Source of the DNA: Streptomyces sp. RKND-216
Lineage (GTDB): Bacteria > Actinomycetota > Actinomycetes > Streptomycetales > Streptomycetaceae
Reading direction: 5' to 3'
Length of the DNA: 64,000 nucleotides
Assembly: GCF_004795255.1 (NCBI RefSeq)
Contig: NZ_SSBQ01000002.1
Span: 4,680,001-4,744,000 of the forward strand
Both the position numbers and the translations under genes were made by a program. Positions 27,825 through 53,882 of this stretch are shown piece after piece. Under the pieces are notes generated by a model, which saw only the letters and a list, made by a program, of their open reading frames with translations, was not told where the DNA came from and did no database searches. The stretch's first letter is position 1; each line of letters opens with the position of its first letter.

Positions 27825-29621
27825 TTGCACATTCTGCTGGTGGCCGGCGCCTTCAACAGCCTCACCCAACGCGTCCACGCCGAGCTGACCGCACGCGGTC
27901 ACGCCGTCGCCGTGGAGACGGTCGCCGACGGCGAGGCGATCCGGACGGCCGTACGGCGGCACCGCCCCGGACTGGTGCTCGCGCCCATGCTGAAGGCCGC
28001 GATCCCGCGCGAGGTGTTCACCGCCCACACCTGCCTGGTCGTGCACCCCGGACCGCCCGGTGACCGCGGTCCGTCCTCCCTGGACTGGGCCATCGCCGGG
28101 GGAGCGCGCCGCTGGGGCGTGACCGTCCTCGAGGCCGAGGCGGAGATGGACGCCGGACGTGTCTGGGCCTGGGCGCCCTGCCCGCTCCCGGAACGCGGGA
28201 AGAGTGACCTGTACCGCGGCGAGATCGCCGACGCCGCCCTGACCGCCGTGCACCTCGCCGTCGAACGGTTCGCCTCCGGCGCCCACACCCCAACCCGGCA
28301 GGACGACCCGGCGCTGGGCGCCGGGGTGTGCGTACGGCCTGGGATGCGGCAGGCCGACCGGCGCCTGGACTGGCACCGGCACACCACTGCCGACGTGCTG
28401 CGCATTCTTCGCGCCGCCGACTCCCAGCCCGGCGTCCGCGACACCCTGCTCGGCGCGGAATGGTTCCTGCACGGCGGGCACCCCGAGTACGGGCTGCGGG
28501 GGCGGCCCGGCACGCTCCTGGCCGTCCGCGCCGGTGCGGTGTGCCGGGCCACCGCCGACGGCGCCGTGTGGCTGCCCGTCCTGCGCGAACGACGCACGGA
28601 CGGCCGTCGTGGCATCGCCCTGCCCGCCGTCACCGCCCTCGGAGACCGGCTGCCCGACCTGCCCGAGGAGCCGGTCCCGCTGGCCCAGGAGGCGCCGCCC
28701 GGGCCCGGTGCCCACGGGGACCCGGACGCGCGTACGGCCTGGTCGGACATCCGCTACCGGGAGCAGGGCGCCGCCGGATTCTTGCAGTTCTCCTTCCCCG
28801 GCGGCGCGATGAGCACCGCGCACTGCCGTCGCCTGCTCGACGCCTACCGCTACGCCTGCACCCGCCCCACCCGGGTGCTGGTCCTGGGCCCCGCCCGCGA
28901 CTTCTTCTCCAACGGCATCCACCTCGGCGTCATCGAGGCCGCCGCCGACCCCGCCGCCGAGTCGTGGGCCAACATCGAGGCGATGAACGACCTGGTGCGG
29001 GCCGTTCTCACCACCACCGACCGGTTGACGGTCGCCGCCCTCTGCGGCAACGCGGCGGCCGGGGGCGTGATGCTGGCGCTGGCCGCCGACGAGGTGTGGT
29101 GCCGCCGCGGCGTCGTGCTCAACCCGCACTACCGGCTGATGGGCCTGCCCGGTTCCGAGTACTGGACCGCCACCCTGCCCCGCCGCGTCGGCCCGCACAC
29201 CGCCCGCGACCTCACCGAGCGGGCGCTGCCGGTCGGCGCGGACCCCGCCCACCGCATCGGGCTGGTGGACCGCGTCCTGGAGACCTCCCCGCAGGGGTTC
29301 GCCGCGGAGACGGCCGCACGGGCCGCACGGACGGCGGGCTCGGCCGAGACCGAACGCCGCATCGGCGCGAAGAAGTCCGACCTGGAGGCGCGCGAGGCGC
29401 GCAGGCCCCTGGCCGACCACCGTGCGGAGGAACTCGCCGCGATGCGGGCCGTGTTCGACGACCCCGGCGCGCCGTACCACGCGCTGCGGGCGGCGTTCGT
29501 CCGCAAGGAGGCCCCGCCCGCCGGGGCCCCGCAGCCTCGCTTCGCCGCCCGTGCACCGGCCGCAGGCGACGGCGAAGCTTCACCACGTCGTCCCTCCACG
29601 GAAGCCCATCGCCCCGTCTGA
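27825..29621 (+). CDS. hypX: HypX/HoxX, CO-ligand synthase for NiFe hydrogenase
   Basis: 598 residues. The start is TTG at 27825 with GGGAGG 6 bases upstream. Residues about 1-270 resemble formyl-tetrahydrofolate transferase domains (ILLVAGAFNSLTQRV, LVVHPGPPGDRGPSSLDWAI, RLDWHRHTTADVLRILRAAD). Residues about 310-560 are a crotonase/enoyl-CoA hydratase domain (GPARDFFSNGIHLGVIEAAA, AALCGNAAAGGVMLALAADE). HypX takes the formyl group from formyl-THF via formyl-CoA to CO, the carbonyl ligand of the Fe in NiFe hydrogenases made in oxygen. Other hyp genes lie 16.6 kb to the right. Confidence 0.93.
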   Translation: MHILLVAGAFNSLTQRVHAELTARGHAVAVETVADGEAIRTAVRRHRPGLVLAPMLKAAIPREVFTAHTCLVVHPGPPGDRGPSSLDWAIAGGARRWGVTVLEAEAEMDAGRVWAWAPCPLPERGKSDLYRGEIADAALTAVHLAVERFASGAHTPTRQDDPALGAGVCVRPGMRQADRRLDWHRHTTADVLRILRAADSQPGVRDTLLGAEWFLHGGHPEYGLRGRPGTLLAVRAGAVCRATADGAVWLPVLRERRTDGRRGIALPAVTALGDRLPDLPEEPVPLAQEAPPGPGAHGDPDARTAWSDIRYREQGAAGFLQFSFPGGAMSTAHCRRLLDAYRYACTRPTRVLVLGPARDFFSNGIHLGVIEAAADPAAESWANIEAMNDLVRAVLTTTDRLTVAALCGNAAAGGVMLALAADEVWCRRGVVLNPHYRLMGLPGSEYWTATLPRRVGPHTARDLTERALPVGADPAHRIGLVDRVLETSPQGFAAETAARAARTAGSAETERRIGAKKSDLEAREARRPLADHRAEELAAMRAVFDDPGAPYHALRAAFVRKEAPPAGAPQPRFAARAPAAGDGEASPRRPSTEAHRPV

Positions 29622-30610: not shown

Positions 30611-31094
30611 GACCACTCCTTCGATTCACCGGTTCCCCGCGGATACGGGTGACCGGACGTTCTCATCCGGAACTTCGTATTGCGCATCGGTGCCGACCTC
30701 CTGCTCTGTGTCCGGCGCCAATGCGCCTCCGCGCAAGGAGATGTCCCGAGTGGCCTGCGGGGGTGGCAGCCAGACCGGTGCAGAGGCCGGACAATCGCAG
30801 GGAGGCGTGGTCGGCCGGGCCGCCACGGGGTCCGGCCCGGCCGTCACGAGGACGCCGAAGGTCGCGCCGTCGCTCCGGGTACCGCGGGCGCGCCTTTGTC
30901 CACCTGCGATGGGGCGGCTCCTCCTGCCGGTGGCGGGTGTGTGCCTTTGAGGATGCCGGGTGGCATCTGGTGTCCGCAGAGGTCGAATGTCCTTCGATGT
31001 GGTCCTGACGGCCCTGGCTCGGCCCGTGCCGGTGCTTCCAGCTCCCGGTGGGGCCAGGGCTGCGTCGGGATCTGCGTGGTGGGGCGGTGGTGCG
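30611..31094. other. 484-bp gap with no recognisable gene
   Basis: The gap separates the divergent USP gene and the P-type ATPase relic. Reading frames here are shadows without ribosome sites or known domains. A GGTCC-TGAC-GGCCC element at 31001-31014 matches 8 of 10 fixed positions of the island motif (see 36417) and lies about 80 bp before the relic start. Confidence 0.5.
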
Positions 31095-32195
31095 GTGAGG
31101 GACCGGGCGGGAGAGGCACAGGCGGCCGCGCGGGATCCGGGTCCGTCGGAAGCCGAGGCATCGCTGCGGCTTGCCGCTTGGTGGCCGAACGCAGTGCCTT
31201 CCGCGCCACCGGCCCCGTTGTGGCGGCGGGTGTTGCTCCAGCTGCGGGTCCCCCTGATCGTGGTGCTGGTGCTCCTGGCCGCCGCGCTGCTGACCGTTGC
31301 CACGGGTGACGTCTCGGACACGGTGGTCATCGCTTTTCATCGTGGTGGTGAACAGGGCGGTCGGTGTGTCTCGGGAGGTGCGGGCGGAGCGTGCTGTCGC
31401 CGCGCTGTCCGTCCTCAGCGCCCCGGCGGCGAGAGTGCTGCGGGACGGCCGGGCGCGTTCGGTGGCCGCCGACGGGGTCGTCGCGGGTGATGTGGTCCTC
31501 CTCGCGGAGGGCGATGTCGTCCCCGCCGACGGCCGGGTCCGTGAGGCGGCGATGCTGCTTGTCGACGAGTCCTCGCTCACGGGTGAATCCCTTCCCGTGG
31601 ACAAGGCGGCGGGTGACGGGGAGGGCGACATCGTGTCGGGGGGCACCGGCTGGCACGGTTCGGCCGGCTCCTCGCTGCCGTGACCGTGTTGCTGTGCACC
31701 GTGGTCTTCGCGACCGGGCTGGTGCGGGGGCAACCGCTGGAGCTGATGGCGGTCACGGCGGTCAGTCTCGCGGTGGCGGCGGTGCCGGAGTCGCTGCCGG
31801 CGGTGGTGACGTTGTCCTTGGCCCTGGGTGCACGGAGGATGGCCGTGCGTCGGGCGATCGTGCGGCGCTTGCCGGCCGTGGAGACGCTGGGTTCTGTGAC
31901 GGTCATCGCCACGGACAAGACGTCGCGCTCGGCGTCAGTCAACTGGGCGTCGCGCTGGGGTCCCGGGGGCCGGAACCCTCGCGAATCCGTTCCTGCTCCT
32001 GACGGTCTGTGCGGCTCTGGGCCTGCAGTGCGCGGCGATCCATCTGCCGCCGCTGCGCTCTCTGCTGGGGACCACGGCGCCGACCATGCCGGAGCTGCTG
32101 GCCGCTTGCGGATGTCGGTGCTCGGCTACCTCCTGATGCGCGTGCAGTCCCGGCTCTGGCCGGAGAGGTGGGCCGGACGAGGCGGGGCCGGTCCG
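31095..32195 (+). pseudogene. CtpF/PMA1-like P-type cation ATPase, decayed
   Basis: Pieces in correct order but in changing frames are: the N-terminal domain (SEAEASLRLAAWWPNAVPSA, RRVLLQLRVPLIVVLVLL); the actuator domain ([40 protein letters not shown]); the M4 helix and phosphorylation site ([35 protein letters not shown]); and C-terminal helices ([32 protein letters not shown]). About two thirds of the protein, including the nucleotide-binding domain, is gone. CtpF of M. tuberculosis is a DosR-regulon member, so the gene fits the island although it is dead. Confidence 0.8.
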
Positions 32196-32205
32196 CCCGG
32201 CTGTG

Positions 32206-32219
32206 GGGACCTTGGGCCC
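32206..32219. promoter_or_regulatory. Island motif GGGAC-CTTG-GGCCC upstream of the flavodoxin gene
   Basis: A perfect match to GGGAC-N4-GGCCC, 101 bp before the flavodoxin start. GGGAC is the core half-site of DosR/DevR operators in mycobacteria. Assignment to the island's response regulator is inference. Confidence 0.5.
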
Positions 32220-32320
32220 ACTGACCCCACCGACTCCTCGGCCGATGCTTGGGAGAGGACGGGACGTGGCCACGGACCGGAGCCGGACCTGGCGCACGAG
32301 CCGAGGAGGTCGGCGACAAC

Positions 32321-32878
32321 ATGCGGATACTGGTCGTCTACGCCACTGTGTACGGCTCGACCCGGCAGATCGCGGAGAGGATCGGAGCCCGGCTCGGAGC
32401 GTCTGGAGTTCACGTCGAGGTGCGCGCCGTCGACATGGTCGAGGACGTGTCGCGGTTCGATGCGTTCCTCGTCGGAAGCGCCATTCACGACCAGGCCTGG
32501 TTGCCCGAGGCGCAGGACTTCGTGCAGCGCCACCACGCGCTGCTGTCCCGATGCCCGGTGTGGCTGTTCAGCGTCGGCATGGCTGCCGCCCTTCCTCCGC
32601 GCATGCACGCTCTGGCGATGAGGCAGGAGCACATCGTTCTCGCTTCCCTGCCCCACGTCCATCCTCGTGGGCACCACGTGTTCTCAGGAATCGTGATGCC
32701 CGACCGCATACCCCTGCGCGCACGCCTGCTGTTCCGTCTACTCGGAGGCCGGTACGGCGACTACTGCGATCCGAAGGAAGCCGACAGATGGGCCGCGGGC
32801 ATCGCCGGCCGTCTGAACGGAGTCGCCGGTGCGGTGCAGTCTTCCCCTCCCCGCCGCCCTTCTGAGCCGACCGCGTAG
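32321..32878 (+). CDS. Flavodoxin-domain protein
   Basis: 185 residues. The FMN phosphate loop is [18 protein letters not shown], close to the YATxYGxT of protoporphyrinogen oxidase HemG and related flavodoxins. [20 protein letters not shown] is the second FMN-contact loop. The C-terminus has [21 protein letters not shown] soluble FMN electron carrier, probably used in hypoxic metabolism given the USP, nitroreductase and DevRS neighbours. ATG follows GAGGAGG by 11 bases. Confidence 0.87.
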
Positions 32879-32905
32879 CCGAACTCCCTTGAGAAAGGTG
32901 AGATC

Positions 32906-33400
32906 ATGCACGCCCTCGTCCACTACGGTCCCGAGAAGTTCGCCTGGGGGCACGTCCCCGATCCGGCGGTCAAGGACGCCGAGGACGCGGTGGTCCGTGT
33001 CGACTGCACGACCATCTGCGGCACCGACCTGCACATCCTCAAGGGGGACGTGCCCGATGTCGTCCCTGGAAGGTTCTCGGGCACGAGGCCGTAGGCGAAA
33101 TCGTGGCAGCAGGCCACAACGTGACCGGGTTTCAGCCAGGAGGGTTCCTATGGGCAATGCCTTGGCGAATCATCGTCACCGACCTCGCGCCGAGCCGGCT
33201 CGCGGCGGCCGAGCAACTCGGCGCCGAGGTCGTCGTACAAGCGGCAGAGGAGCCCGAACGCGTGGTGCAGGACCTCACTGGCGGGCTGGGCGCGGATGTG
33301 GTGATGGAGGCCGTCGGTGTACCGGAGACCTTCGAGATGTGAACCCGCATGGTCAGGCGCGCCCGCACGACGGTCATCCCTCCTGTCGGCCGTTGTCACC
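32906..33400 (+). pseudogene. Zinc alcohol dehydrogenase relic
   Basis: The N-terminus MHALVHYGPEKFAWGHVPDP to CTTICGTDLHILKGDVPDV is intact with the catalytic zinc cysteine. A one-base shift then puts VLGHEAVGEIVAAGHNVTGF in another frame. After FQPG the sequence jumps to RIIVTDLAPSRLAAAEQLGA of the Rossmann domain, losing the zinc lobe and the GxGxxG loop. It ends at an early stop after VGVPETFEM. One frameshift, one internal deletion and one nonsense codon make it dead. Homologues are common in Streptomyces stress islands beside USP genes. Confidence 0.8.
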
Positions 33401-34014
33401 TACGGGTGCGCGCGTCCCGACCAATGCGGTTCCACCGCGTCCCACTCCTTCTCCCAACATGTGGCGTGGTGCCTCTCGAAGAGGCGGCGCAGTCCAACGT
33501 TGGCAGTGAGCGTCAGGGCGACGACGGCGCCGGCGGCCATGAGGCCCATCGCCCAGGCTTCGGCCTCGGGCGAGGGCCGGGCCTCCGGAGGGCTGGTGAG
33601 GCCACCGGCCCGGTCGAGCCAGACGCGTACGCGTTCGTTGCGCTCGGAGGCGGTGGGAACTTGGGCCGTACCGGTGTGGGTCTCACCGTCGGAGCCAGTC
33701 CAGCGGACCTGCGCCCATGTCGACGGGTCCCGGGTACCGGATTCCTGTGATTCCGTCGGATCCGTGACCACCCTCGCGGTGACTGCTCGTCGCTCCGCCA
33801 GCTCTGTCTGAACACGCGCCGTGTGCGCCGAGTGTCCGGCGTTCGCGGCCACGATGCCGGCGGTCACCGCGCCGACCACGAGTACCGCCGCCAGAATCAC
33901 TCGAAGCCACGACCACAGACGGTCGGAGGGGCGGCGCAGAGGGTTCTCGCGTCGCGAACTCCGGTGCGGTGGCGGTTCTGGTGCAGAAGGAAACGGTGAC
34001 CTACTCGGGTTCAT
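33400..34014 (-). CDS. Rv1733c-like two-helix membrane protein
   Basis: 204 residues. Helix 1 (about 39-58, VILAAVLVVGAVTAGIVAAN) and helix 2 (about 152-172, AWAMGLMAAGAVVALTLTAN) flank a soluble extracytoplasmic loop with QVRWTGSDGETHTGTAQVP and RVRVWLDRAGGLT. That is the layout of M. tuberculosis Rv1733c, a DosR-regulon protein of unknown function and common in Streptomyces hypoxia clusters. It follows the USP gene on the same strand by 31 bp, so the two are probably co-transcribed. Confidence 0.85.
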   Translation of the reverse strand: MNPSRSPFPSAPEPPPHRSSRRENPLRRPSDRLWSWLRVILAAVLVVGAVTAGIVAANAGHSAHTARVQTELAERRAVTARVVTDPTESQESGTRDPSTWAQVRWTGSDGETHTGTAQVPTASERNERVRVWLDRAGGLTSPPEARPSPEAEAWAMGLMAAGAVVALTLTANVGLRRLFERHHATCWEKEWDAVEPHWSGRAHP

Positions 34015-34045
34015 CGGATTCCCTTCCCCTTGCGACGCCCACGGT

Positions 34046-34921
34046 TCAGTCGTGGGGTACGACGGCCACCGGCGGTTCGGCGTGGTGCAGCACGGCGTGG
34101 GTGACGGAGCCGATGTGGGTGCCGAAGCGCGACCGGCGGTTGCGACGTCCGACGACGACGAGGGATGCGTCGGCGGAGGCGGTCAGGAGAGTGCGGGCCG
34201 GCCATCCGACGGGGGCCTGACAGGAGACGGTGGGACGGGGAAACTTCTCCTGCCACGGCAGGAGCAGCTTACGTACCGCTTCCGTCTTCTCTTCGACCAG
34301 TTCTTCCACCAGTCGGGGCGGGGCCGCGATCGGGCGTACCCCGAAGGCAGGCGGCAGTTCCCATCCGTGGACGACACGCAGAGCGGTTTCCCAGCGCTCC
34401 GCGGTCCGGAAGGCGAAGGAGAGGAGTTCGTCGGCGGACTCCTCCAGCTTGACTCCCAGTACGACCGGTCGTTGCTGAGGCTGCTGCGGTGCGTCGTCCT
34501 CGGCTTCCTGATTCCGTACGACCACCACGGGGCACCGCGCATGTGCGAGGGTGGGCAGTCCCACGGAGCCCACGAGGAATCCTGTGACCGGCCCCAGCCC
34601 CCGGGATCCGAGAACGAGCAGGTTGTCGCGGTCGCTGAAACTCACCAAGACCTTCGAAGGGCGCCCGGAGTAGTGATGCGTCGCTGTCCGCAGGCCGGGG
34701 TAGCGGCGGGCCAGGTCGGTCGCCGCCTCCCGGGTGGTCTCCTCCCCCCATTCGCGTTCGACCTCGTCGTCCATGAGGGGGGAGTAGGGGTAGGGGCCGG
34801 TCTCCCTGATCTGGACGAGGTTGAGTTCGGCGTCCCGGCTGAGGGCCTCTCGCGCAGCCCAGTCGACGGCCGCCCGACTCTCGCGCGAGCCGTCGATACC
34901 CACGGTGACGGTGGGAGTCAT
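34046..34921 (-). CDS. Tandem universal stress protein (2)
   Basis: 291 residues, two UspA domains. The first has VTVGIDGSRESRAAVDWAAR and the ATP loop GSRGLGPVTGFLVGSVG. The second has GRRNRRSRFGTHIGSVTHAV, where the glycine of the usual G-x2-G loop is an asparagine, so its ATP binding may be weak. The ATG has AGGAGG 6 bases upstream. An imperfect island motif lies 38 bp upstream of the start. It heads a unit with the Rv1733c-like gene. Confidence 0.9.
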   Translation of the reverse strand: MTPTVTVGIDGSRESRAAVDWAAREALSRDAELNLVQIRETGPYPYSPLMDDEVEREWGEETTREAATDLARRYPGLRTATHHYSGRPSKVLVSFSDRDNLLVLGSRGLGPVTGFLVGSVGLPTLAHARCPVVVVRNQEAEDDAPQQPQQRPVVLGVKLEESADELLSFAFRTAERWETALRVVHGWELPPAFGVRPIAAPPRLVEELVEEKTEAVRKLLLPWQEKFPRPTVSCQAPVGWPARTLLTASADASLVVVGRRNRRSRFGTHIGSVTHAVLHHAEPPVAVVPHD

Positions 34922-34958
34922 GGTCTACCTCCTGTCTGCAGCAAGCCGACGGGCACCC

Positions 34959-34972
34959 GGGCCACGGGTCTT
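34959..34972. promoter_or_regulatory. Imperfect island motif upstream of USP (2)
   Basis: GGGCC-ACGG-GTCTT on the plus strand reads as AAGAC-N4-GGCCC toward the gene, matching 8 of 10 fixed bases of the motif seen perfectly at 32206, 36417 and 36549. It ends 38 bp from the start codon. Confidence 0.35.
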
Positions 34973-35039
34973 CGTCTTCAGCGTCCGCCGTGCGAGGTGG
35001 GAGGTGGAGGGGCCACAGGTCCCTGCTCCGATCCGAGGG

Positions 35040-35537
35040 GCCCCGGCACGGGTCCCTCGAGGGTGTCGAGTACGTAGCAGCCGCCGGGCGCGCCGGTGAG
35101 CCAGGGGTACATCGCACCCGCGTGTCCGGCCGCCTGTGCCAACCTCAACCGCTCGTGGAAGCCGGCGGTGCCGGTAGGCGAGCAGGCCCCGGGAGACCTC
35201 CCGGCTTGCAGCGGTTGGCTGATGGCGCTGTCCCGTGAGGTGTGAACGGTCACGGCCTTCTTTAAGGTGACCGTGTGTCCCGGCACGACGGGCACGCTGA
35301 CCCGCTGCATCACGCTCCGCCGACGGGCGCGCGGCTCGGAGAACCCGGCTCCGGGAGAACCGGCCCGCTGCCGTGGTCCGCGGGCGCGGCTTCGGGAGCT
35401 GCCCCGCGCGTGGCGGAATAGCCGTTGCCCAGGGTGCACAGTGTCTCCCGCAGACGTTCTTGTTCCGGGGAGTAGCCCTGGTAGGTCCACGACCAGGCCG
35501 ACAAAGAGCCGGGGTCCTGAGGCGAGGGGTCGTTCAC
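35040..35537 (-). pseudogene. GH65 glycoside phosphorylase relic
   Basis: From a GTG that overlaps the stop of the HAD relic (GTGA), the frame reads WSWTYQGYSPEQERLRETLC, then TLGNGYSATRGAAPEA, the conserved N-terminus of family 65 trehalose/maltose/kojibiose phosphorylases. After a frame change come VPGHTVTLKKAVTVHTSRDS and, after a further gap, HERLRLAQAAGHAGAMYPW from the catalytic barrel. About 600 residues are missing. In Streptomyces a GH65 enzyme and a beta-phosphoglucomutase form an operon; both are broken here but the overlap is preserved. Confidence 0.7.
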
Positions 35538-36216
35538 GTCGCCGTCTCCGTGTGCGCGATGAGTTGATCGAGATCGTCGACGACGATGTCGGCGCCCCGC
35601 GAGCGGAGGTCGCCCGTGTGGGTGGGGGTTCTGCTGCGGACATCGAGCCGCCGCGCGGCCTCGAGGAAGAGCGCCGGGTCGGGTCTTCCCGGCAGGTTCA
35701 GCCTGGCCGCTTCGTTGCCGTCGACGACGGTGGTGAACAAGGCGAGGACCGCTGCCTTGTGCAGCAGTCCTCGGGCATGGCGGGAAGCGGAGACCGCTGC
35801 CATGGGGACGCGGAGTTCTGCCAGGGTGTGGAGCAGCTGCAGCGTCCCCGGCCAGGCGACGATGGCGCAGTGGCGCAGTGGCGCAGTGGCGCAGTGGCGC
35901 AGTGGCGCAGTGGCGCAGTGGCGCAGTCGGCACAGGAAGGCGCGTTCCTTGGCGGCCGCGAGCGCGTGAACGGTGGCGGACCCCGGCGGGTCGTCCGCCG
36001 TGCCCATCGGCAGTTCCAGGCCTCGTGTGGCGAGGAAGGACGCCACACCGTCCGTCCGGGCCCTGCCGTCCACGTAGCAGCGGTAGTCCTCGGCCGCGTC
36101 GAAGGGGACGCCCCCGTTGCGGCCAGGTAGTCGTCGAAGGCGTCCTTCCAGGCCGCCGCATGCACCTGCGCCGAGTCGGTGACCACGCCGTCCGTGTCGG
36201 AGATCATCGCGCGAAC
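35534..36216 (-). pseudogene. Beta-phosphoglucomutase-like HAD phosphatase, broken
   Basis: The start AMISDTDGVVTDSAQVHAAA (HAD motif I, with DTDG) is in one frame. A slip in a run of five G residues near 36110 moves the rest to another, VPFDAAEDYRCYVDGRARTD. The frame continues through a block encoding a repeated CATAPLRH from an 8-bp DNA repeat, then GTLQLLHTLAELRVPMAAVS, NLPGRPDPALFLEAARRLDV and a truncated end GADIVVDDLDQL. Motif IV is deleted. It normally converts beta-glucose 1-phosphate from the GH65 partner to glucose 6-phosphate. Confidence 0.75.
35864..35927. repeat. Eight perfect tandem copies of the 8-bp unit GGCGCAGT
   Basis: The unit is repeated eight times without error inside the broken HAD gene and is read as an eight-residue peptide repeat. 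Because 8 is not a multiple of 3, gain or loss of one unit would change the reading frame downstream. Confidence 0.95.
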
Positions 36217-36416
36217 CGCGTGGAGCGGCGGGGGCAAGGGGCAGCCGCACGGGGAAGGCCCTCCTTCCGCACGTCGTGTTCGCCGCACGCCGGGGTCAGC
36301 AAGCTTCCCGCCCCGGCGACGCTTCGGCGCACCGGACCGGACGGGCTGTGACGGTCCGGTCCCCACGGTGCCGCGGCTGCTCCTTCGGCATGCAGGGCCT
36401 TCCCGTACCGGACGCC

Positions 36417-36430
36417 GGGACCTGTGGCCC
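36417..36430. promoter_or_regulatory. Island motif GGGAC-CTGT-GGCCC
   Basis: Perfect match to the recurring motif. It is 215 bp before the cNMP-binding gene and about 200 bp before the divergent HAD relic, so it could have served either. Confidence 0.5.
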
Positions 36431-36548
36431 GATTCCCGTGGCGTTTCTCACCGGGGGCGTGCCGCACTGGTCGGGCGCGTCGCGGTGCGGCTCTCCGTCG
36501 GCGGAGGTCCGATGGACGGGGGAAGGCCGTGCTCTCAAGAGAGTCCTC

Positions 36549-36562
36549 GGGACGAGTGGCCC
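36549..36562. promoter_or_regulatory. Island motif GGGAC-GAGT-GGCCC
   Basis: Perfect match to the recurring motif, 69 bp before the cNMP-binding gene, the first gene of the cNMP-CBS unit. It agrees with the 36417 site at 12 of 14 bases. Confidence 0.55.
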
Positions 36563-36631
36563 CTACCGGTCGGCTCTGCCGCATTCCACGATGGTGGTGC
36601 AGGGGCCCGTGCCGCAGGGAGGTGAGTCCCA

Positions 36632-37105
36632 ATGGTGGAGGTCGGTCCTGTGCTGCTGGAAGCTCTTCCCCCAGCGGGCAGGGAGGCCCTGATGCGGGAG
36701 GCGAAGCCGGTGGAGTTCCCCGACGGTGCCCGGATCTTCCGTGAGGGGCAGCGAGCAGACCGCTTCTGGGTTCTGCGCAGTGGCTCGGTCCGTTTGGCGT
36801 GGGAGGTTCCGCTGCAGGCACCCGTGACGGTGGAGCGGCTGCATCGCGGGGAACTTGTGGGGTGGTCGTGGCTGTTTCCCCCGCACGAGTGGCATTTCAC
36901 CGCGCGGGCGGAAGGCCATGTCACGGCATGGGAGTTCGACGCTGCGGCGGCGCGTGAGTTGTGCGACTCCGATCCGGAGTTCGGCCGGTCTCTCGTATGG
37001 CAGGTGGCCCGCATCGTCGCGCATCGGCTGCAGACGGCTCGCATGCGTCTTCTGCACACGTACGGCCCATGGAGGCACGCCATGACGTCGGAGGGGGCGG
37101 AGTGA
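36632..37105 (+). CDS. Cyclic-nucleotide-binding-domain protein without a DNA-binding domain
   Basis: 157 residues, one Crp-type beta-roll. It shows FPDGARIFREGQRADRFWVL, RSGSVRLAWEVP and RLHRGELVGWSWLFPPHEWH, then the long helix (EFGRSLVWQVARIVAHRLQTARMRL). It stops where a Crp/Fnr helix-turn-helix would start, so it is a sensor only. The usual RxSA-like phosphate-binding motif is replaced by FPPHEWHF, so cAMP may not be the ligand. GGGAGG precedes the ATG, and its stop overlaps the CBS gene start in GTGA. Confidence 0.87.
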   Translation: MVEVGPVLLEALPPAGREALMREAKPVEFPDGARIFREGQRADRFWVLRSGSVRLAWEVPLQAPVTVERLHRGELVGWSWLFPPHEWHFTARAEGHVTAWEFDAAAARELCDSDPEFGRSLVWQVARIVAHRLQTARMRLLHTYGPWRHAMTSEGAE

Positions 37106-37827
37106 AGCACTCTCCTCATGTAGTGAACGACGTGATGACCCACACGGTGGTCGCGGTGGGTCCTGACGCCTCGTTCAAGGAGATCGTGGAAACGATGGAG
37201 AAGTGGAAGGTCAGTGCGCTGCCGGTGCTGGAAGGTGACGGCAGGGTCGTGGGGGTGGTCTCGGAGGCCGATCTGCTCTTCAAGGAGGAGTACCGGAACG
37301 GTCCGCCGACCCTCGCTGACGAGGCGCGGTATCCCGGGGACTTCGTGAAGGCCGGAGCACTGGTGGCTCACGATCTGATGACGGCGCCCGCAGTGTCGGT
37401 ACGTTCGGATTCGACGCTGGCCCAGGCGGCGCGCGCGATGGCCCGCCGACGGCTCAAGCGCTTGCCGGTCGTCGATGCAGAGGGGCACCTGACGGGAATC
37501 GTCAGCCGGAGTGATCTGTTGAAGGTGTTCCTGCGTTCCGACGAGGGCATCGCCGAGGAAGTCCGTGAACAGGTGATCGCTCCGCTGTTCCCGTTCGAAG
37601 AGGCGACGGTGCACGTGACCGTCGAGGGAGGCGTGGTGACGTTCCTCGGCTGGTTCCGGGACACTTCCCTGGTTCCCATGGCGGCACGCATGGCTCGCTC
37701 CGTCGAGGGAGTGGTCGATGTCGACTTCCGCCTCAGCCACCCGGGCGACGCACCGGGCCGTACGCTGCCTGGAGAGCGGAGAGCTGCTGCGTCACCGGGA
37801 CGTTCCGGCGATGATGAGGCTACGTAA
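37102..37827 (+). CDS. CBS-pair protein with BON domain (1)
   Basis: 241 residues. CBS 1 is about 7-65 (VVNDVMTHTVVAVGPDASFK, LPVLEGDGRVVGVVSEADLL). CBS 2 is about 90-150 (HDLMTAPAVSVRSDSTLAQA, RLKRLPVVDAEGHLTGIVSR). A BON domain is about 155-220 (VHVTVEGGVVTFLGWFRDTS, VPMAARMARSVEGVVDVDFR). CBS pairs bind adenine nucleotides and BON domains contact membranes or partners. The GTG start overlaps the cNMP gene by 4 bp, so the two sensors are co-translated. Hypoxic induction is inferred from context. Confidence 0.9.
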   Translation: MKHSPHVVNDVMTHTVVAVGPDASFKEIVETMEKWKVSALPVLEGDGRVVGVVSEADLLFKEEYRNGPPTLADEARYPGDFVKAGALVAHDLMTAPAVSVRSDSTLAQAARAMARRRLKRLPVVDAEGHLTGIVSRSDLLKVFLRSDEGIAEEVREQVIAPLFPFEEATVHVTVEGGVVTFLGWFRDTSLVPMAARMARSVEGVVDVDFRLSHPGDAPGRTLPGERRAAASPGRSGDDEAT

Positions 37828-37852
37828 CCGCTCCTCCTCGAGGTGACTGGCG

Positions 37853-38560
37853 ATGCCCGACACAGGTGCTCATCCGGCCGCGGCCCCCGAACAACCGCTC
37901 CGTGTGTTCCTGCTCGACGACCACGAGGTCGTCCGGCGTGGCCTGAGTGATCTCCTGGGAAGCGAATCCGACATCGAGGTGGTGGGTGAGGCCTCCACCG
38001 CCGATCAGGCTCTCGCTCGAGTGCCCGCCCTCCGGCCCGACGTGGCGGTCCTGGACGTGAGGCTGCCGGACGGCAACGGGATCGTCGTGTGCCGGGAACT
38101 GCGTTCGCGGATGCCGCATCTCGCGTGCCTGATGCTCACTTCCTTCGACGACGACGACGCTCTGCTCGATGCGATTCTGGCCGGAGCCGCCGGGTACGTT
38201 CTCAAGCAGATCAAGGGATCCGATCTGCTTGCCGCCGTGCGGACGGTCGCAGCGGGGCAGTCGATGCTGGACCCGGCGACGACCGGTCGGCTGATGAACA
38301 GCCTGCGGGGAGAGACGCAGGAACCCGCGGAGCAGGAGAGCCTGGCAGGTCTCTCGACGCGCGAGCGCGAGATCCTGGCACTGATCGGCGAGGGCTTGAC
38401 CAACCGGCAGATCGGGAAGCGGCTCTATCTGTCGGAGAAGACCGTAAAGAACAACATCTCCCGGTTGCTGAGCAAGCTGGGTGTGGAGCGCCGGGTGCAG
38501 GCGGCGGTGATCGCGACGCAGTCGGGTCTCCGTCCGGCGCCGGAAGAGCACCGGGGCTGA
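37853..38560 (+). CDS. devR: DevR/DosR-like response regulator
   Basis: 235 residues. The receiver domain starts [20 protein letters not shown] with the acceptor in [13 protein letters not shown], then [20 protein letters not shown] and [13 protein letters not shown], followed by a LuxR helix-turn-helix ([40 protein letters not shown]). The [17 protein letters not shown] and EKTVKNN-S segments match mycobacterial DosR/DevR and Streptomyces OsdR, which turn on hypoxia and dormancy genes. The kinase is encoded convergently 64 bp downstream. It probably acts through the GGGAC-N4-GGCCC sites. Confidence 0.92.
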
Positions 38561-38624
38561 CGAGGGCGCGTGGGGTTCGCGGAGGCCGGAGCGGCCGGCT
38601 TCCCCCGGCTCCGGCCGGACGGGA

Positions 38625-40346
38625 TCAGCCCGGTCCACCGGTCAGTGGAGCGGACCATTCCAGGGAGGTGCCGCCCTCGCGCCGCCTGGACACGCGGAGG
38701 CGACCACCGAGTTTCTCTGCGCGCTCGGCCAGATTCCGCAGGCCGCTGCGCCGGCCCCCGTTCTCCGGCATGCCCACCCCGTCGTCCTCCACCGACAGGA
38801 TCGCCGAGCCGTTCGCCGCGGTCAGGGAGACCTCCACGGCGGCCGCCCCCGCGTGCCGGACCACGTTGGTAAGGGCCTCCCTCAGGACTGCTTCGACGGC
38901 GTCGGCGACATCTGCGGGGACGTCGGTGTCGATCAGTCCATGCATGCGCAGCGCGGGGGTGAAGCCAAGGGGTGCCACCGCGTCTTCCACGGCCTTGACG
39001 ATTCTCGACCGCAGCCCGTTCTTCCCGGTTCCTTCTCGTCGGCGCAGCCCGAAGATCGTGGAACGGATGATCCTCGTCGTCTCATCCAGGTCGTCGACTG
39101 CCCGGAGCAGTCGCTCGCGTGCCTCGGTGTGTTCGACGAAGCGCAGTGCGCTCTGCACCGAGATCCCGGTGGCGAACAGGCGCTGGATGGCAAGGTCGTG
39201 CAGGTCCCGTGCGATGCGGTCCCGGTCCTCGAGCAGGGTGATCTGCTCGGCGTCGCGTCGACGGTCGGCGAGTTCCATCGCCAGTGCGGCCTGCCCCGCG
39301 TAAGCGAGGAGAGGGGCGGTCTCCAGGTCGGTGAAGACGGCGAGGGGGTCTTTGCGCGCCAGGAGGAGCACTCCGCGGGCTCCGTCTTCGGCAGCCATGG
39401 GCACGGCGGCGGCGGGGCCGAAGGCACGCCAACGTGGGGGGCCGGCCGTGATGCGGGGGTCGCGGGAGATGTTGTGGCTCGTGATGGGCCTTCCGGCAGC
39501 GACGGCGGCGCCCGCGAACGACCCGCGGCGCGGGAGGACGAGCCCTTGGTGTCGTTCGGCCTCTGCTCCTGTGGCCAGCGCCACCCGCAGGGTGCTCGGG
39601 TCGTCTTCGACGAGTGCGAGGGCGCCCAGGTCTGCTTTCAGAATCCGACGAGCGTGATCGACGATGAGTTCCAGGACTGCCGGTTCCTCGGTCCCGGAGA
39701 GCAGGCTGGCGGTGACTTCCGCGTTGGCTTCCAGCCATCGTTGCCGGTTGCGGGCCTGCTCGTACAGCCTGGCGTTGTCGACGGCTATGCCGGCGGCGAC
39801 AGCCAGAGTGGACAGGACCGCTTCGTCTTCGCTGTCGAACTCCCGGCCGTCCCGCTTCCCGGCGAGGTACAGGTTCCCGAACACTTCTCCGCGGATCTTC
39901 ACCGGTACGCCGAGGAAGGTGTGCATGGGTGGGTGCCGCGGCGGAAAGCCCCGGGAGGCCGGGTGGCGGGAGATCTCGGCAAGGCGCAGGGGCTCGGGGT
40001 GGCGGATGAGTTCGCCGAGAAGACCATGGCCAGTGGGCAGGGGGCCGATGGCTTCGATCTGCTCCTGGGTGAGCCCCACGGGCACGAACTGCGACAGCCC
40101 TCCCTCCTCCCCGATGACCCCGAGGGCGCCGTACTCGGCATCGACGAGGACCGTTGCCGCCTCGACGATCCGTCGCAGGGCCTGAGGGAGATCGAGTTCG
40201 CTCCCTACGGACAACACCGCTTCGAGCAGATGATGAATGCGGTCGCGGGTACCGCGCATCGCCTCGATGCGCGCCTGCAGCTCCTCCAGCAACTGGTCCA
40301 AGTGGAGTCGCGGCAGGTGGTCGGGGGTTCGGCTGTCCTGGGTCAC
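38625..40346 (-). CDS. devS: DevS/DosS-like two-GAF sensor histidine kinase
   Basis: 573 residues, soluble. GAF-A (about 50-195) holds FPPRHPPMHTFLGVPVKIRG, with H138 where DosS/DevS carry the haem-binding histidine in HPPM-TFLG. GAF-B is about 215-355. The HisKA_3 box is DRDRIARDLHDLAIQRLFAT and the ATPase has REALTNVVRHAGAAA and DDGVGMPENGGRRSGLRNLA. DosS-type kinases sense oxygen, NO, CO or redox state. GTG at 40346 follows GGAGGG. It pairs with the DevR-like regulator although the genes face each other. Confidence 0.92.
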   Translation of the reverse strand: MTQDSRTPDHLPRLHLDQLLEELQARIEAMRGTRDRIHHLLEAVLSVGSELDLPQALRRIVEAATVLVDAEYGALGVIGEEGGLSQFVPVGLTQEQIEAIGPLPTGHGLLGELIRHPEPLRLAEISRHPASRGFPPRHPPMHTFLGVPVKIRGEVFGNLYLAGKRDGREFDSEDEAVLSTLAVAAGIAVDNARLYEQARNRQRWLEANAEVTASLLSGTEEPAVLELIVDHARRILKADLGALALVEDDPSTLRVALATGAEAERHQGLVLPRRGSFAGAAVAAGRPITSHNISRDPRITAGPPRWRAFGPAAAVPMAAEDGARGVLLLARKDPLAVFTDLETAPLLAYAGQAALAMELADRRRDAEQITLLEDRDRIARDLHDLAIQRLFATGISVQSALRFVEHTEARERLLRAVDDLDETTRIIRSTIFGLRRREGTGKNGLRSRIVKAVEDAVAPLGFTPALRMHGLIDTDVPADVADAVEAVLREALTNVVRHAGAAAVEVSLTAANGSAILSVEDDGVGMPENGGRRSGLRNLAERAEKLGGRLRVSRRREGGTSLEWSAPLTGGPG

Positions 40347-40611
40347 CGGCCCTCCAGAGGTACCCGAAACGCGTCGGAGACTCTCAGAACAACCGTAGCG
40401 GTTCGTCTTCGGCGGCGCTGCCGAAGACACCGCACGCGAGACCCTGCGTAGTCATCTCGATGCCTTGCGTAACGAGAAGAGGGGCAGTCCAACGACCAGA
40501 TGCGTCACCGGTGCCACGCACGCCGACAGCGGCCGGGCCCCTCGACGCCGCCCTCACACGCCGCGTGGCGGTGCGCGCCCCGTCCGCCGAGGACTCGCCC
40601 GCTGCCCGGCG

Positions 40612-41610
40612 TCAGGGCTCGATGACGAGAACGTCCGTGACCGGTCGGCGCGGAGCGCCGGTTCCGCGAGGGCCGTACCCCAGACGCATCAGCATCTGCA
40701 CATGTCCCACCCCGGTCATGGGGTCCTTCAGCGGCCACCGCGTGTCGGTCCACTCGAGCGCTTCGGTGGCGAAGGAGGTGGCCACGTCGTGGAGGGTCGC
40801 GGTGAGCAGGACACGTTCCATGGCCTGTCCGGCGCGCAGCCAGTCCGTGGGGCCGTCGTAGTAGGTGCTGATCAACGCGACCTGCGGGTGGTTCTCGAAC
40901 GATGTGGCACCCAGGTCGGACGAAGGGTGATTCCCGGCGAAGTCGCGCACCGGCGCCCGTCCTCCTCGCCGGCGCGGCCCGAACGCGTATTGCGGCACTC
41001 CGTCGGTCGCAATGTCCGAGGCTGCCGCTCCGACACGTGTCCAGCGTGCCAGTTCTTCGGCTCGTCCGGGGTCCTCCCTGTTCCGCGACGCCCCCTCCTG
41101 AGCGAGTTCGAGCACCCATCGCAGGTGCCAGTCGGAGGGGAAGGTCAAGATCGCACCCTCCCGGGCGGCCGCTTCGATCAGCTCGCTGCGGATATGGTCG
41201 GGAAGGGGTTTCGGGGCGAACGGATAGCGGCTGGTATGGCGCCGGGCGACGGCCGGATGGAGCACGGCCAGATCCTCGTCGGCGCCGAGTGAAGGGGAGG
41301 TGAGGCGCACTGTGGCCATCCGTTCCGGCTCGTCGCCGCTGGGCCGCAGCCGGGTGAGGGTGGAGTGCCCGGCCTGGCATGCCGCGGCGCGCAGGTTCAG
41401 CAGCGCGGCACCGCATCCGATGTGCAGTGCCCGTGCCTGGGGGTCGGTGTGCGGCAGGGCCCGGGTGAAGTCGCCGTAGAGGTGGAAGGTCGCGGTGCTG
41501 CGGGTGTAGCGGAAGCGCCACGGCTGGGCGTTGTGCAGCGAGGGGGCAGCGACTGCGGCTTGAGCCAGTGCCCGCACATGCTGGTCATCGGCTGGCGGCG
41601 TCTGCTTCAC
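40612..41610 (-). CDS. Acg-family nitroreductase-like protein
   Basis: 332 residues. The N-terminus holds AAVAAPSLHNAQPWRFRYTR, the FMN-binding start of the family. The second half has HTSRYPFAPKPLPDHIRSEL, ATSFENHPQVALISTYYDGP, DWLRAGQAMERVLLTATLHD and the end RLGYGPRGTGAPRRPVTDVL. This is the Acg (Rv2032) branch, FMN proteins lacking the usual dimer partner segment; Acg is strongly DosR-dependent in M. tuberculosis and may sequester flavin. Start is GTG with a GAGGAG site. Confidence 0.9.
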   Translation of the reverse strand: MKQTPPADDQHVRALAQAAVAAPSLHNAQPWRFRYTRSTATFHLYGDFTRALPHTDPQARALHIGCGAALLNLRAAACQAGHSTLTRLRPSGDEPERMATVRLTSPSLGADEDLAVLHPAVARRHTSRYPFAPKPLPDHIRSELIEAAAREGAILTFPSDWHLRWVLELAQEGASRNREDPGRAEELARWTRVGAAASDIATDGVPQYAFGPRRRGGRAPVRDFAGNHPSSDLGATSFENHPQVALISTYYDGPTDWLRAGQAMERVLLTATLHDVATSFATEALEWTDTRWPLKDPMTGVGHVQMLMRLGYGPRGTGAPRRPVTDVLVIEP

Positions 41611-41990
41611 GGCCGATCTCCTCGACTGCTGTAGTGGCCCCCGGCTGGATGGAGGACGGGTCGAGGGTTCGTCCGCTTCTCGCGGACCCTGATCGCGCGG
41701 TGAGCGGCCGGGAACGTCCGTTTCTCCGCGCCTACCGGTGGGCCCCCGACCCGCTTCTCAGTGCACCGCGTCGGCGGTCGGCGTGCCAGGGGCCGACCGG
41801 CCTCGTTCTGACAGGGCCGGACGGGCGGGGGCCTCGTCGGGCGGCGGGGAATTCTCAGCTGTGCCCGGTGCGCCGCATGCCCGAGCAGGTACCGAAGGTC
41901 CCCAGGCCCGCACCCGCTCGGCCCTCGCCGGCCATGCCGCAGGAACGGCACCGTGAAGACGAGAGCACCAGCGCATCCAGGGAGGACGCC
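41611..41990. other. 380-bp gap without a recognisable gene
   Basis: The gap lies between the divergent Acg gene and the Hsp20 relic. Frames here show no domain or ribosome site. AGGTC-CCCA-GGCCC at 41896-41909 matches 8 of 10 fixed positions of the island motif, 82 bp before the relic's start. Confidence 0.5.
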
Positions 41991-42167
41991 ATGCACACAT
42001 CGATGGAGCCTCGTCACGGCACGATGTCGCTCCCCGACCTGTTCGACCGGATCGTGCCGGAGTTCCCTGTGATGTCCGGGGTCCGCGGCATCCTCACGGT
42101 CACGGTGCCCGTGCCCGAGGAGTCCGCGAAGGGCTGCCGCACCATCGCTGTGCAGGGCCCCGAATGA
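41991..42167 (+). pseudogene. Hsp20 (alpha-crystallin) gene with the core deleted
   Basis: A 58-codon frame with an intact GGAGG site and ATG. Residues 12-32 (SLPDLFDRIVPEFPVMSG) look like the N-terminus of actinomycete Hsp20, and residues 33-58 (GILTVTVPVPEESAKGCRTI) like its C-terminal strand and I-x-V tail. The whole alpha-crystallin core of about 70 residues is missing, yet the join is in frame. HspX/Acr, an Hsp20, is a leading DosR target, which fits the island. Whether the mini-protein is made is unknown. Confidence 0.6.
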
Positions 42168-42233
42168 GTGAGGACGTGCCGGTCGATGTCGCCTGGTCCC
42201 GTCGCCGCCGATCGGCACTCTTCGGGTGGGCTC

Positions 42234-42247
42234 GCGACCATCGGCCC
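42234..42247. promoter_or_regulatory. Island motif (9 of 10) upstream of USP (3)
   Basis: GCGAC-CATC-GGCCC lies 33 bp before the start of the third universal stress gene, differing from the motif at one position. Confidence 0.4.
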
Positions 42248-46246: not shown

Positions 46247-46585
46247 ATGGCCGGCAGTACGGAGCCCACCGCCGAGGAGACGCCCTGGTGGCACCCCGAG
46301 GCCGAACGCAGCGTGGACCCCGCGCGTGACCGGGTGCAGGTGCAGGGCGCGTCGATCGGCGCCGGGGACCGCGTCGTGCTGCGGCCCGGACAGCGCCGCA
46401 GCGACGCCCAGGACGTCTTCCTCGACGGCCGCACGGCCGTGGTGGAGGAGGTGCTGCACGACGTGGACGGCTCCGTGCACCTCGCGGTGACCGTCGAGGG
46501 CGATCCGGGCACCGAACTGCGCCGTGCCCAGCGCCGCTACTGGTACTTCCAGCCCGACGAGGTCACCCTCCCGGAGGAGGCGTGA
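46247..46585 (+). CDS. Small conserved protein of actinobacterial hydrogenase clusters
   Basis: 112 residues. It starts ETPWWHPEAERSVDPARDRV and has GDRVVLRPGQRRSDAQDVFL, DGRTAVVEEVLHDVDG, HLAVTVEGDPG and the end RRYWYFQPDEVTLPEEA. Proteins with this pattern (a small beta-barrel-like domain) commonly accompany NiFe-hydrogenase genes in actinomycetes, but the function is unknown to me. Its stop overlaps the GTG of the maturation protease by 4 bp, so it is the first gene of the maturation operon. Confidence 0.75.
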   Translation: MAGSTEPTAEETPWWHPEAERSVDPARDRVQVQGASIGAGDRVVLRPGQRRSDAQDVFLDGRTAVVEEVLHDVDGSVHLAVTVEGDPGTELRRAQRRYWYFQPDEVTLPEEA

Positions 46586-47196
46586 GCAGCCCGGAGACGA
46601 ACGGCCCGCGGGCGAACGGCCCGGCCGTCGGCAACGCGGACGCGAACACCGGCCCGGAGACCGCGCCCGGCCGCATCCTCGTCGCCGGCATCGGCAACAT
46701 CTTCCTCGGTGACGACGGCTTCGGCGTCGAGACCGCGCGCCGGCTGCGCGAGGAGACGATGCCGCCGGGCGTGGAGGTGCAGGACACCGGCGTGCGCGGC
46801 GTCCACCTCGCCTACCAGCTGCTCGACGGCTACGCGGGCCTGGTCCTCGTCGACGCCGTACCCGGGGACGACCCGCCCGGCACGCTCCGCGTCATCGAAC
46901 CCGGTCCCGACCCTGCGGGGGGCCCGGTGGCCGTGGTCGACGGCCACCGCATGACCCCGGACGCCGTGCTGGGCCTCCTGGACACCCTGGCCGAAGGCAC
47001 CGGTGAGGCCGGCCCTCGCCGGGTGCTGGTGGTCGGCTGCGTGCCCGAGACGGTGGAGGAGGGGATGGGCCTGTCCCGGTCGGTGGCCGCGGCGGTGCCA
47101 GAGGCCGTGCTGCTCGTGCGTGAACTCGTCGACGACCTGGTCGCCGAGCTCCTGCCGCACCCGGAGGCGGGAGCGGCGGCTGGCGGCCCCTCCTGA
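46582..47196 (+). CDS. NiFe-hydrogenase maturation endopeptidase (HupD/HybD type)
   Basis: 204 residues. After a 30-residue disordered start the peptidase fold begins RILVAGIGNIFLGDDGFGVE. The nickel-sensing residues of HybD-type proteases are all seen: the glutamate in DGFGVE, the aspartate in LVLVDAVPGDDPPG and the histidine in VVDGHRMTP. This enzyme removes the C-terminal peptide of the hydrogenase large subunit once nickel is in place. Its presence implies a cognate large subunit elsewhere in the genome. Confidence 0.92.
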   Translation: MSSPETNGPRANGPAVGNADANTGPETAPGRILVAGIGNIFLGDDGFGVETARRLREETMPPGVEVQDTGVRGVHLAYQLLDGYAGLVLVDAVPGDDPPGTLRVIEPGPDPAGGPVAVVDGHRMTPDAVLGLLDTLAEGTGEAGPRRVLVVGCVPETVEEGMGLSRSVAAAVPEAVLLVRELVDDLVAELLPHPEAGAAAGGPS

Positions 47197-47324
47197 GCCG
47201 AACGGGCCAGCCGCCCCGGCTGCGGCGGCGTGTCAGCCCGGGGCCCACCCGGGCCCGTCCTGTAATGAGCGGAGGGGCAGCGGGAGGCGCCGCGCACCCG
47301 ACGTCCACGCGAGAAGAGACCACG

Positions 47325-47717
47325 ATGCACGAGATGTCCATCGCCATGGCGGTGGTGCAGCAGGTCGAGGAGGCGCCGCCGGAGGACGTCAACGGCGCCG
47401 TCGAGTGCGTCCGGCTCCAGGTCGGCGAACTCGCCGGCGTCGTCCCCGACGCCCTCCGCTTCAGCTTCTCCCTGGCCTGTGCCGGGACCGTCCTGGAGGG
47501 CGCGGAGCTGCTGATCGATGCCGTCCCCGGCCGTGCCCGCTGCATGACCTGCGACCACGCGTGGGCGACGGGCATGCCGCCCCGCCTGGCCTGCCCGCAG
47601 TGCGACGGGGCGGACACCGAACTGCTCGCCGGCCGGGAGCTGCGGATCACCGCGCTCCGGTGCTCCGGTGCCCGCCCCGACCCCGTCCCGTCCGCCCCGG
47701 TGCCCGAGGAGAGCTGA
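47325..47717 (+). CDS. hypA: HypA nickel metallochaperone
   Basis: 130 residues. It starts M-H-E-M with the nickel-binding histidine at position 2. VRLQVGELAGVVPDALRFSF is the conserved core and the zinc knuckle is formed by CMTCDHAW and CPQCDG. HypA with HypB inserts nickel into the large subunit. An unusually long tail after the zinc site (ITALRCSGARPDPVPSAPVP) is probably disordered. The HypB gene follows after 2 bp. Confidence 0.93.
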   Translation: MHEMSIAMAVVQQVEEAPPEDVNGAVECVRLQVGELAGVVPDALRFSFSLACAGTVLEGAELLIDAVPGRARCMTCDHAWATGMPPRLACPQCDGADTELLAGRELRITALRCSGARPDPVPSAPVPEES

Positions 47718-47719
47718 CC

Positions 47720-48511: not shown

Positions 48512-48512
48512 C

Positions 48513-51095: not shown

Positions 51096-51405
51096 CGGCA
51101 CCCGGATGGCCGAGGTCGACTTCGGCGGCGTGGTGAAGGAGGTGTGCCTGGAGTACGTGCCCGACCTCCGGGTCGGCGAGTACACCATCGTGCACGTCGG
51201 CTTCGCGCTCCAGCGGCTGGACGAGGAGTCTGCGCGGCAGACACTCGAACTCTTCGCCGGACTCGGTCTGCTGGAGGAGGAGTTCGGCGACGCCTGGCTG
51301 CAGGCGGCCGAAGAGAGCGGGCAGCCCGTACCGCACGCAGCGGAGGGGCCCGGCGGGGCAGCAGGCGTCCCCGCCGCCCAGGACACGGTGGAGGAGGCCC
51401 GGTGA
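51049..51405 (+). CDS. hypC: HypC Fe(CN)2CO chaperone
   Basis: 118 residues. The obligatory N-terminus M-C-L-A-V-P-G-R is present with the essential cysteine at position 2, followed by [20 protein letters not shown] and [25 protein letters not shown] site lies inside the end of hypF. The tail beyond residue 80 is longer than in E. coli HypC (90 residues). HypC binds HypD and carries the Fe ligand group to the large subunit. Confidence 0.94.
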
Positions 51406-53687: not shown

Positions 53688-53882
53688 GGTACCCGGCCCC
53701 GGTTCCCGACCCCGGCCCGCGCGGCGGGCGACCGACGAGGACGTCGAAGCCGGAGGTGAGAGGCCATGCAGGCTGCGGTGCGGCCCGGAAACCGGGACGT
53801 GAGGCCCAGAGACGGCGGGGCCCGGACGCCCGCGCCGATGCCGGAACGGTAGCGCCCCGGCTACCGCGGCGACGGGACGGAC

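Follow-up and report, generated by a model that had tools for sequence, protein, structure and literature searches.

Which protein reads the recurring word GGGAC-N4-GGCCC in a putative dormancy island of Streptomyces sp. RKND-216 is a question raised by a 64,000-nucleotide stretch of contig NZ_SSBQ01000002.1 (positions 4,680,001 to 4,744,000, forward strand), here called the window and numbered from its first letter. A preliminary description of this DNA had placed seven copies of the word in gaps upstream of genes or gene relics between 31001 and 42247 (the island), and had proposed that they form the operator of the DevR-like regulator encoded at 37853. Comparison with homologous islands makes it very probable that the word is an operator of this regulator, which is of the DevR/OsdR type. 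In these islands, the concentration of the word in gaps and its recurrence ahead of universal stress protein (USP) genes bear the proposal out in part; it was incomplete, the dominant symmetric form of the operator and a site of that form at 41790 having been overlooked. The conservation of the word, its position, spacing and orientation, and its concentration in such islands are directly observed and are described in the following sections.

Copies of the word in the window, the genome and homologous islands

A search of the window identified five exact copies, at 32206(+), 35010(-), 36417(+), 36549(+) and 53794(+), all of which are located in gaps between predicted genes, as had been stated for the copies known at the time; four are inside the island and 53794 is outside it. 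The copies at 32206, 36417 and 36549 had been correctly listed as perfect, whereas 35010 had been missed and its neighbor 34959, which has two mismatches, given instead. The mismatch counts of the imperfect copies had also been correctly given (two of ten positions at 31001, 34959 and 41896; one at 42234).

The whole genome (5.61 Mb) contains 38 exact copies, a rate at which 0.068 would be expected in the 11.2 kb of 31001–42247, where four were found; the corresponding Poisson probability (8.6e-7) is too good, because the motif was picked after inspection of the same DNA. When the rate is taken from 400 kb sampled from this genome, the expectation is 0.11. The earlier estimate of about one perfect copy by chance was too high. 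In shuffled versions of the window, 0.90 exact copies per 64 kb were found vs. five observed, and at least five occurred in 1 of 100 shuffles. With relaxed matching this excess fades: 31001–42247 contains seven copies with up to one mismatch (the four exact ones included) vs. 2.8 expected and 60 with up to two (exact ones included) vs. 42 expected, and the whole window contains 240 of the latter vs. 337 in shuffles. The 8- and 9-of-10 copies, which had been counted as elements of the regulon, are thus present in near chance numbers and have no statistical weight. A genome-wide comparison of gaps and coding DNA, covering all 38 copies, gave a divided answer, since all five copies of the window are in gaps, but 10 of the 33 elsewhere are so placed and the other 23 are within predicted genes (gaps make up approximately 15% of the sampled genome).

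Homologous islands were compared in two sets. A single scan yielded 80 loci, comprising 35 islands, 15 control loci carrying a core paralogue of the regulator, and 30 that were unused (distant taxa, short contigs or unclear type); most of the 35 islands have universal stress, CBS, cNMP, nitroreductase or kinase genes nearby, and the named relatives among the scan loci are mostly Streptomyces. The second set consists of 30 stretches from 19 genomes, covering 31 of the 40 regulator matches outside the own genome with long contigs preferred; none of the stretches is a near-duplicate (>93% identity across >3 kb) of another one or of a locus in the first set. Words with spacings of 0–10 were counted independently of the window, in 111 kb of gap and 557 kb of coding DNA for the 35 islands. 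The symmetric word GGGCC-N4-GGCCC was found 78 times in gaps (33 of 35 loci) vs. 13 times in coding DNA, with one copy in control gaps, and GGGAC-N4-GGCCC, hereafter the hybrid word, 26 times in gaps (19 loci) vs. three times in coding DNA, with none in control gaps. The second set gave 73 vs. 15 for the symmetric and 23 vs. 2 for the hybrid word, and the 65 islands together 151 vs. 28 and 49 vs. 5, respectively. In these sequences, the symmetric word is the dominant operator of the family and the hybrid word its one-sided variant. The hybrid word is also present within 300 bp upstream of 14 of 45 USP3-type genes (relatives of the USP3 gene of the island) vs. 24 of 705 unlabeled genes. The proposed comparison with homologous islands therefore came out in favor of the element: because of the 49 vs. 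5 distribution and the recurrence ahead of homologous USP genes, the word is neither equally common inside genes nor absent from orthologous promoters there.

Promoter layout and predicted operators

The arrangement of the operators was analyzed using 365 sites in gaps of the 65 islands, collected with a matrix derived from the 35 islands plus exact hybrids. Among 105 pairs of sites within 150 bp of each other, 39 are spaced by 20–22 bp. Where hybrid sites score below 9 by the symmetric matrix, the GGCCC half faces the gene in 15 of 16 site–gene pairs separated by less than 110 bp. Eleven hybrid sites are located 62–89 bp ahead of USP3-type genes in the same orientation, 10 of them reading GGGACC(A/T)G(C/T)GGCCCCT; GACGCTG follows downstream in six of the 11, and most are accompanied by a symmetric-type site approximately 21 bp upstream, as judged by eye. 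Across 239 operator–gene pairs, position +32 relative to the operator center is recurrently A and position +36 recurrently T, and ANNNT at +31 to +33 is present in 77 of 128 pairs of the first set and 68 of 111 of the second, vs. 1–12 and 2–7, respectively, in ten shifted control windows per set. If this sequence represents a -10 hexamer, the operator center would be placed near -43, over the -35 region; in M. tuberculosis, DevR promoters likewise show close packing of sites, and the start-proximal site overlaps the -35 element (PMC3029386). Among the exact copies of the own genome, ANNNT at the same distance is found in three of the five in the window vs. four of the 33 elsewhere (P 0.035). 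The words tandem, spacing and orientation do not occur in the main text of PMC5069765, which describes the OsdR operator of S. coelicolor, and neither the 21-bp pairing nor the +32 box was met in the parts of it that were consulted; a literature search of titles and the beginnings of abstracts also found neither feature for OsdR. Some layout rules of the promoter seem to be new, the operator itself having already been published (PMC5069765).

A composite model of operator plus box (threshold, 12) was trained on the islands without the window. Its top three sites in the 64 kb are 35016(-), 36556(+) and 32213(+), which correspond to the copies at 35010, 36549 and 32206 and score 20.9, 17.1 and 14.7 (0.00, 0.03 and 0.13 expected per 13 kb, respectively); the fourth, 46600(-), is inside a gene and scores 12.6 (0.29 expected per 13 kb). 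Ahead of 344 genes sampled from this genome, no composite promoter reached the threshold. Among homologues in the islands, such a promoter precedes 21 of 26 cNMP, 49 of 69 DevR-type and 26 of 45 USP3-type genes, rates that are partly circular because those islands trained the model, whereas neither the window nor the 344-gene sample was used in training. Only 1 of 52 kinase genes in the 65 islands has a composite promoter vs. the 49 of 69 DevR-type genes, and for this reason the kinase seems to be outside the same feedback.

The features of the window are listed in Table 1. The copy at 35010, which has the highest composite score of the window and parallels the same-orientation hybrid sites of USP3-type genes in other islands, is the best supported; USP3 transcription would start at approximately 34973 on the minus strand. 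The 36549 copy precedes the cNMP, CBS-BON and DevR genes, which presumably form one operon (the same gene order is found in loci L083, L093 and L113), and autoregulation is therefore predicted, with a putative start at approximately 36599. For the flavodoxin-like gene, a start at approximately 32256 is predicted, and the site at 32185 (10.9 by the matrix of published sites, 6.8 by the island matrix) is the probable tandem partner of 32206, 20–22 bp being the preferred spacing in other islands. The activating geometry is thus found at 35010, 36549 and 32206, and neither at 36417 nor at 53794. From the earlier list, 32206 and 36549 are well supported, 36417 is uncertain, and 31001, 34959, 41896 and 42234 are at the level of chance; the sites at 35010 and 41790 are to be added to it.

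The site at 41790 scores 13.5 by the published matrix, within the range of the 26 published OsdR sites (11.3–18.4), and 15.96 by the island matrix, the top value of the window; by these scores it is the strongest symmetric OsdR-type site of the island. No box was found at the expected place on either side of it (-10 scores 0.5 and 0.7), and Pfam gave no match for 41991–42164, within the neighboring short open reading frame (41934–42167) that had been taken for an Hsp20 relic. The hybrid copies fall below the published range owing to their centers (32206, 8.7; 36549, 5.8; 35010 and 36417 outside the top 40), and the published list itself contains the hybrid form.

Several other candidates were rejected. 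The copy at 42234 has a composite score of 8.4, which is at chance level (1.27 expected per 13 kb), and its box would hit the ribosome-binding site and start of USP2; 34959 and 41896 score -7.8 and -6.5 by the island matrix; 53794, ahead of an ion-channel gene, is without a box; and 25437, a good symmetric match, is located between convergent genes and by eye resembles a terminator hairpin.

Table 1. Predicted regulatory sites and associated genes of the window (in the -10-like boxes, position +32 relative to the operator center is A and position +36 is T)
Feature	Position	Strand	Remarks
Predicted operator GGGACCTGTGGCCC	35010..35023	-	Exact match; center ~95 bp upstream of USP3
Predicted -10-like box GACGCT	34980..34985	-	USP3 promoter
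Predicted operator GGGACGAGTGGCCC	36549..36562	+	Exact match; ahead of presumed cNMP-CBS-DevR operon; autoregulatory position
Predicted -10-like box CACGAT	36587..36592	+	Presumed cNMP-CBS-DevR operon
Predicted operator GGGACCTTGGGCCC	32206..32219	+	Exact match; ahead of flavodoxin-like gene (32321-32878)
Imperfect symmetric site GGGCCGGTCCGCCC	32185..32198	+	21 bp upstream of 32206, center to center
Predicted -10-like box GATGCT	32244..32249	+	Flavodoxin-like gene
Exact copy GGGACCTGTGGCCC, uncertain	36417..36430	+	HAD/cNMP gap; 14 bases identical to 35010
Symmetric OsdR-type site GGGCCGACCGGCCT	41790..41803	.	Gap between nitroreductase-like gene (40612-41610, -) and short open reading frame 41934-42167
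DevR/OsdR-type response regulator, 235 amino acids	37853..38560	+	Pfam Response_reg and GerE
DevS-type histidine kinase	38625..40430	-	Pfam GAF domains, HisKA_3, HATPase; convergent to regulator
cNMP-binding-domain gene	36632-37105	+	Pfam; directly upstream of CBS-BON gene
CBS-BON gene	37102-37827	+	Pfam; directly upstream of regulator
Universal stress protein USP3	34046..34921	-	Pfam Usp, E 3.8e-45; presumed target of 35010

The regulator, known systems and alternative readings

The product of 37853 is a DevR/OsdR homologue by its sequence, the alignment having been made to DevR rather than to SCO0204 (OsdR). Its best solved relative is M. tuberculosis DevR (PDB 3c3w; E 8.1e-78), and the alignment shows conservation of Asp54, which is phosphorylated in DevR (PMC3029386), and of Lys179, Lys182 and Asn183 (in the stretch EKTVKN), which contact DNA (PMC4082495). 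A GAF domain of the kinase matches 2vzw (E 2.1e-49) and DevS chains such as 2y8h (E 1.5e-46), and its FPPxHPPM stretch is kept, the His of which is presumably a haem ligand.

The mycobacterial DevR (DosR) dyad has GGGAC on both sides; the window sites share its GGGAC half-site and four-base spacer, and differ from it in having one GGGCC half. OsdR (SCO0204) of S. coelicolor binds the 16-bp palindrome AGGGCCGATCGGCCCT, and hybrids also appear in the published list, for example the uspA site GGGGCCGACCGTCCCT, to which OsdR binds in vitro (PMC5069765). On the opposite strand, this site reads GGGAC-GGTC-GGCCC, and by this match GGGAC-N4-GGCCC is a one-sided form of the published operator. The two systems are alike in the dyad, whose halves are four bases apart and which includes hybrid GGGAC/GGGCC forms, in the gene company (universal stress proteins, a nitroreductase, a Crp-like protein and a DevS-like kinase), and in the concentration of operators around the regulator gene (PMC5069765). 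They differ in that kinase and regulator are convergent in the window but form one operon in S. coelicolor, and in that approximately 10 kb around the regulator of the window contain four exact hybrids and no exact symmetric site; the 65 islands have 0–3 exact hybrids each.

These comparisons suggest that a phosphorylated regulator dimer would bind the half-sites GGGAC and GGGCC (read inwards), four bases apart. At 35010, 36549 and 32206, the operator center would be located approximately 43 bp before the transcription start, replacing the -35 element ahead of a weak -10-like box, and its GGCCC half would be directed towards the promoter; a second site, where present, would lie on the same face, another two helical turns (20–22 bp) upstream. 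The DevS-like kinase presumably phosphorylates the regulator upon a change in oxygen or redox state, and the predicted outcome is activation of USP3, the flavodoxin-like gene and, via the cNMP-CBS-DevR operon, the regulator itself. Such an arrangement adds a further genome to the range of the OsdR/DevR dormancy regulon. It also converts the loose motif into a promoter layout that can be tested, in which a dyad near -43 may be joined by another 20–22 bp upstream and a weak -10-like box is located 31–33 bp past the center. Since no match to this layout was found ahead of the 344 sampled genes, it could be used to list regulon members in many actinomycete genomes; it could also tell copies of the word that are likely to work from those due to chance.

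Several observations weigh against assignment of the word to the island regulator. Hybrid sites at least 110 bp from a gene show no orientation preference (six same, nine reverse), and only 1 of 11 flavodoxin homologues has a composite promoter. GGGAC-N5-GGCCC is also raised in the 35 islands (17 in gaps, four in coding DNA), these copies being by eye mostly symmetric sites with one substitution. When symmetric sites scoring at least 6 are masked, the hybrid word remains seven times in island gaps vs. seven times in all background, a modest enrichment, and ribosome-binding and start signals account for most of the top words that are left. The exact copy at 36417 has no promoter context: it is without a box, is absent among the composite hits and has a low operator score read in reverse. 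Gene calls and starts were produced by a simple script, which missed the cNMP gene of the window that Pfam supports. The island also has one strong symmetric site, vs. approximately 7.6 by the mean gap density; this scarcity is not claimed as a special trait of the genome, because its gaps are inflated by relics and the script-missed gene, and because other loci with one to three sites exist. Finally, a second DevR-like regulator is encoded in the same genome (C2:2765540; 64% identical to the island regulator) and may share the sites.

This core paralogue, taken for an orphan regulator like SCO3818, would be the main user of the sites, or both regulators would use them, the hybrids letting the two share promoters; such a reading is unlikely, but several observations suit it. 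In S. coelicolor, the kinase SCO0203 partners both SCO0204 and the orphan SCO3818 (PMC5069765). In other genomes, GGGAC-N4-GTCCC, the mycobacterial type of dyad, is located 44–64 bp ahead of the next gene in 7 of 15 core-type loci (L117, L119, L123, L125, L126, L129 and L142, at approximately 10.6–10.9 kb) and occurs only once in the gaps of the 35 islands, because of which the GGGAC half could be the preference of the paralogue; in L119, the one case examined, the next gene matches Pfam Pyridox_ox_2 (pyridoxamine-phosphate-oxidase type). A recognition-helix residue is Tyr in 16 of 16 core regulators vs. His or Asn in 61 of 65 island regulators. However, GGGAC-N4-GTCCC is absent from the 3.6 kb that were examined of the paralogue locus of the own genome, which also has a different next gene; the hybrid word is found in no gap of the 15 core loci (three copies are in coding DNA); and it is OsdR itself that binds the published uspA hybrid site (PMC5069765). 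The residue (201, His or Asn) was considered as the cause of hybrid use and rejected, the association being not significant (P 0.15).

A related and still less likely idea, suggested by the same 7 of 15 core-type loci and not by the own locus, is that the paralogues split one ancestral operator, with GGGAC-N4-GTCCC going to the core orphan and GGGCC-N4-GGCCC to the island regulator; the oriented hybrid at stress-protein promoters, its GGCCC half towards the promoter, would then be the meeting point of both inputs or of a mixed dimer. Because distinct words are found near the two paralogues, regulator specificity can be tested directly.

It is very improbable that the word is instead the -35 element of an alternative sigma factor, whose promoter would include gACgcTGga, or another regulator's site: the fixed distance to the -10-like box and the fixed orientation of near hybrid sites are compatible with this, but the element, a 14-bp dyad built of inverted half-sites, is paired at 20–22 bp, is concentrated in islands encoding the regulator, and matches sites shown to bind OsdR (PMC5069765). 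Chance accumulation of GC-rich words in GC-rich gaps, without function, suits the imperfect copies, probably 53794, and the 33 exact copies outside the window with 23 in genes, but is scarcely credible for the element as a whole in view of the density of exact copies, the gap concentration in 65 other islands, the spacing, orientation and box, and the frequency of ANNNT in the window copies vs. the others.

Surroundings of the island

A search of 61 genomes found an island-type regulator (E <=1e-85) in 28, among them the own genome, some having two or three copies, and the island is therefore patchy in its distribution. In the window, it is flanked on one side by a formyltransferase/enoyl-CoA-hydratase fusion (27840–29618), which we take to be HypX/HoxX-like, and on the other by hydrogenase maturation genes (46582–53616) encoding a maturation protease, CobW/HypB, HypD and an AIRS-domain protein taken for HypE. 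Pieces of an E1-E2 ATPase and of a zinc alcohol dehydrogenase (the latter in two pieces) are present at 31342–31683 and 32906–33342 as relics adjoining intact stress genes. A run of the 8-bp unit GGCGCAGT was identified at 35855–35934 within a weak HAD-like gene; since eight is not a multiple of three, a change in copy number would shift the reading frame.

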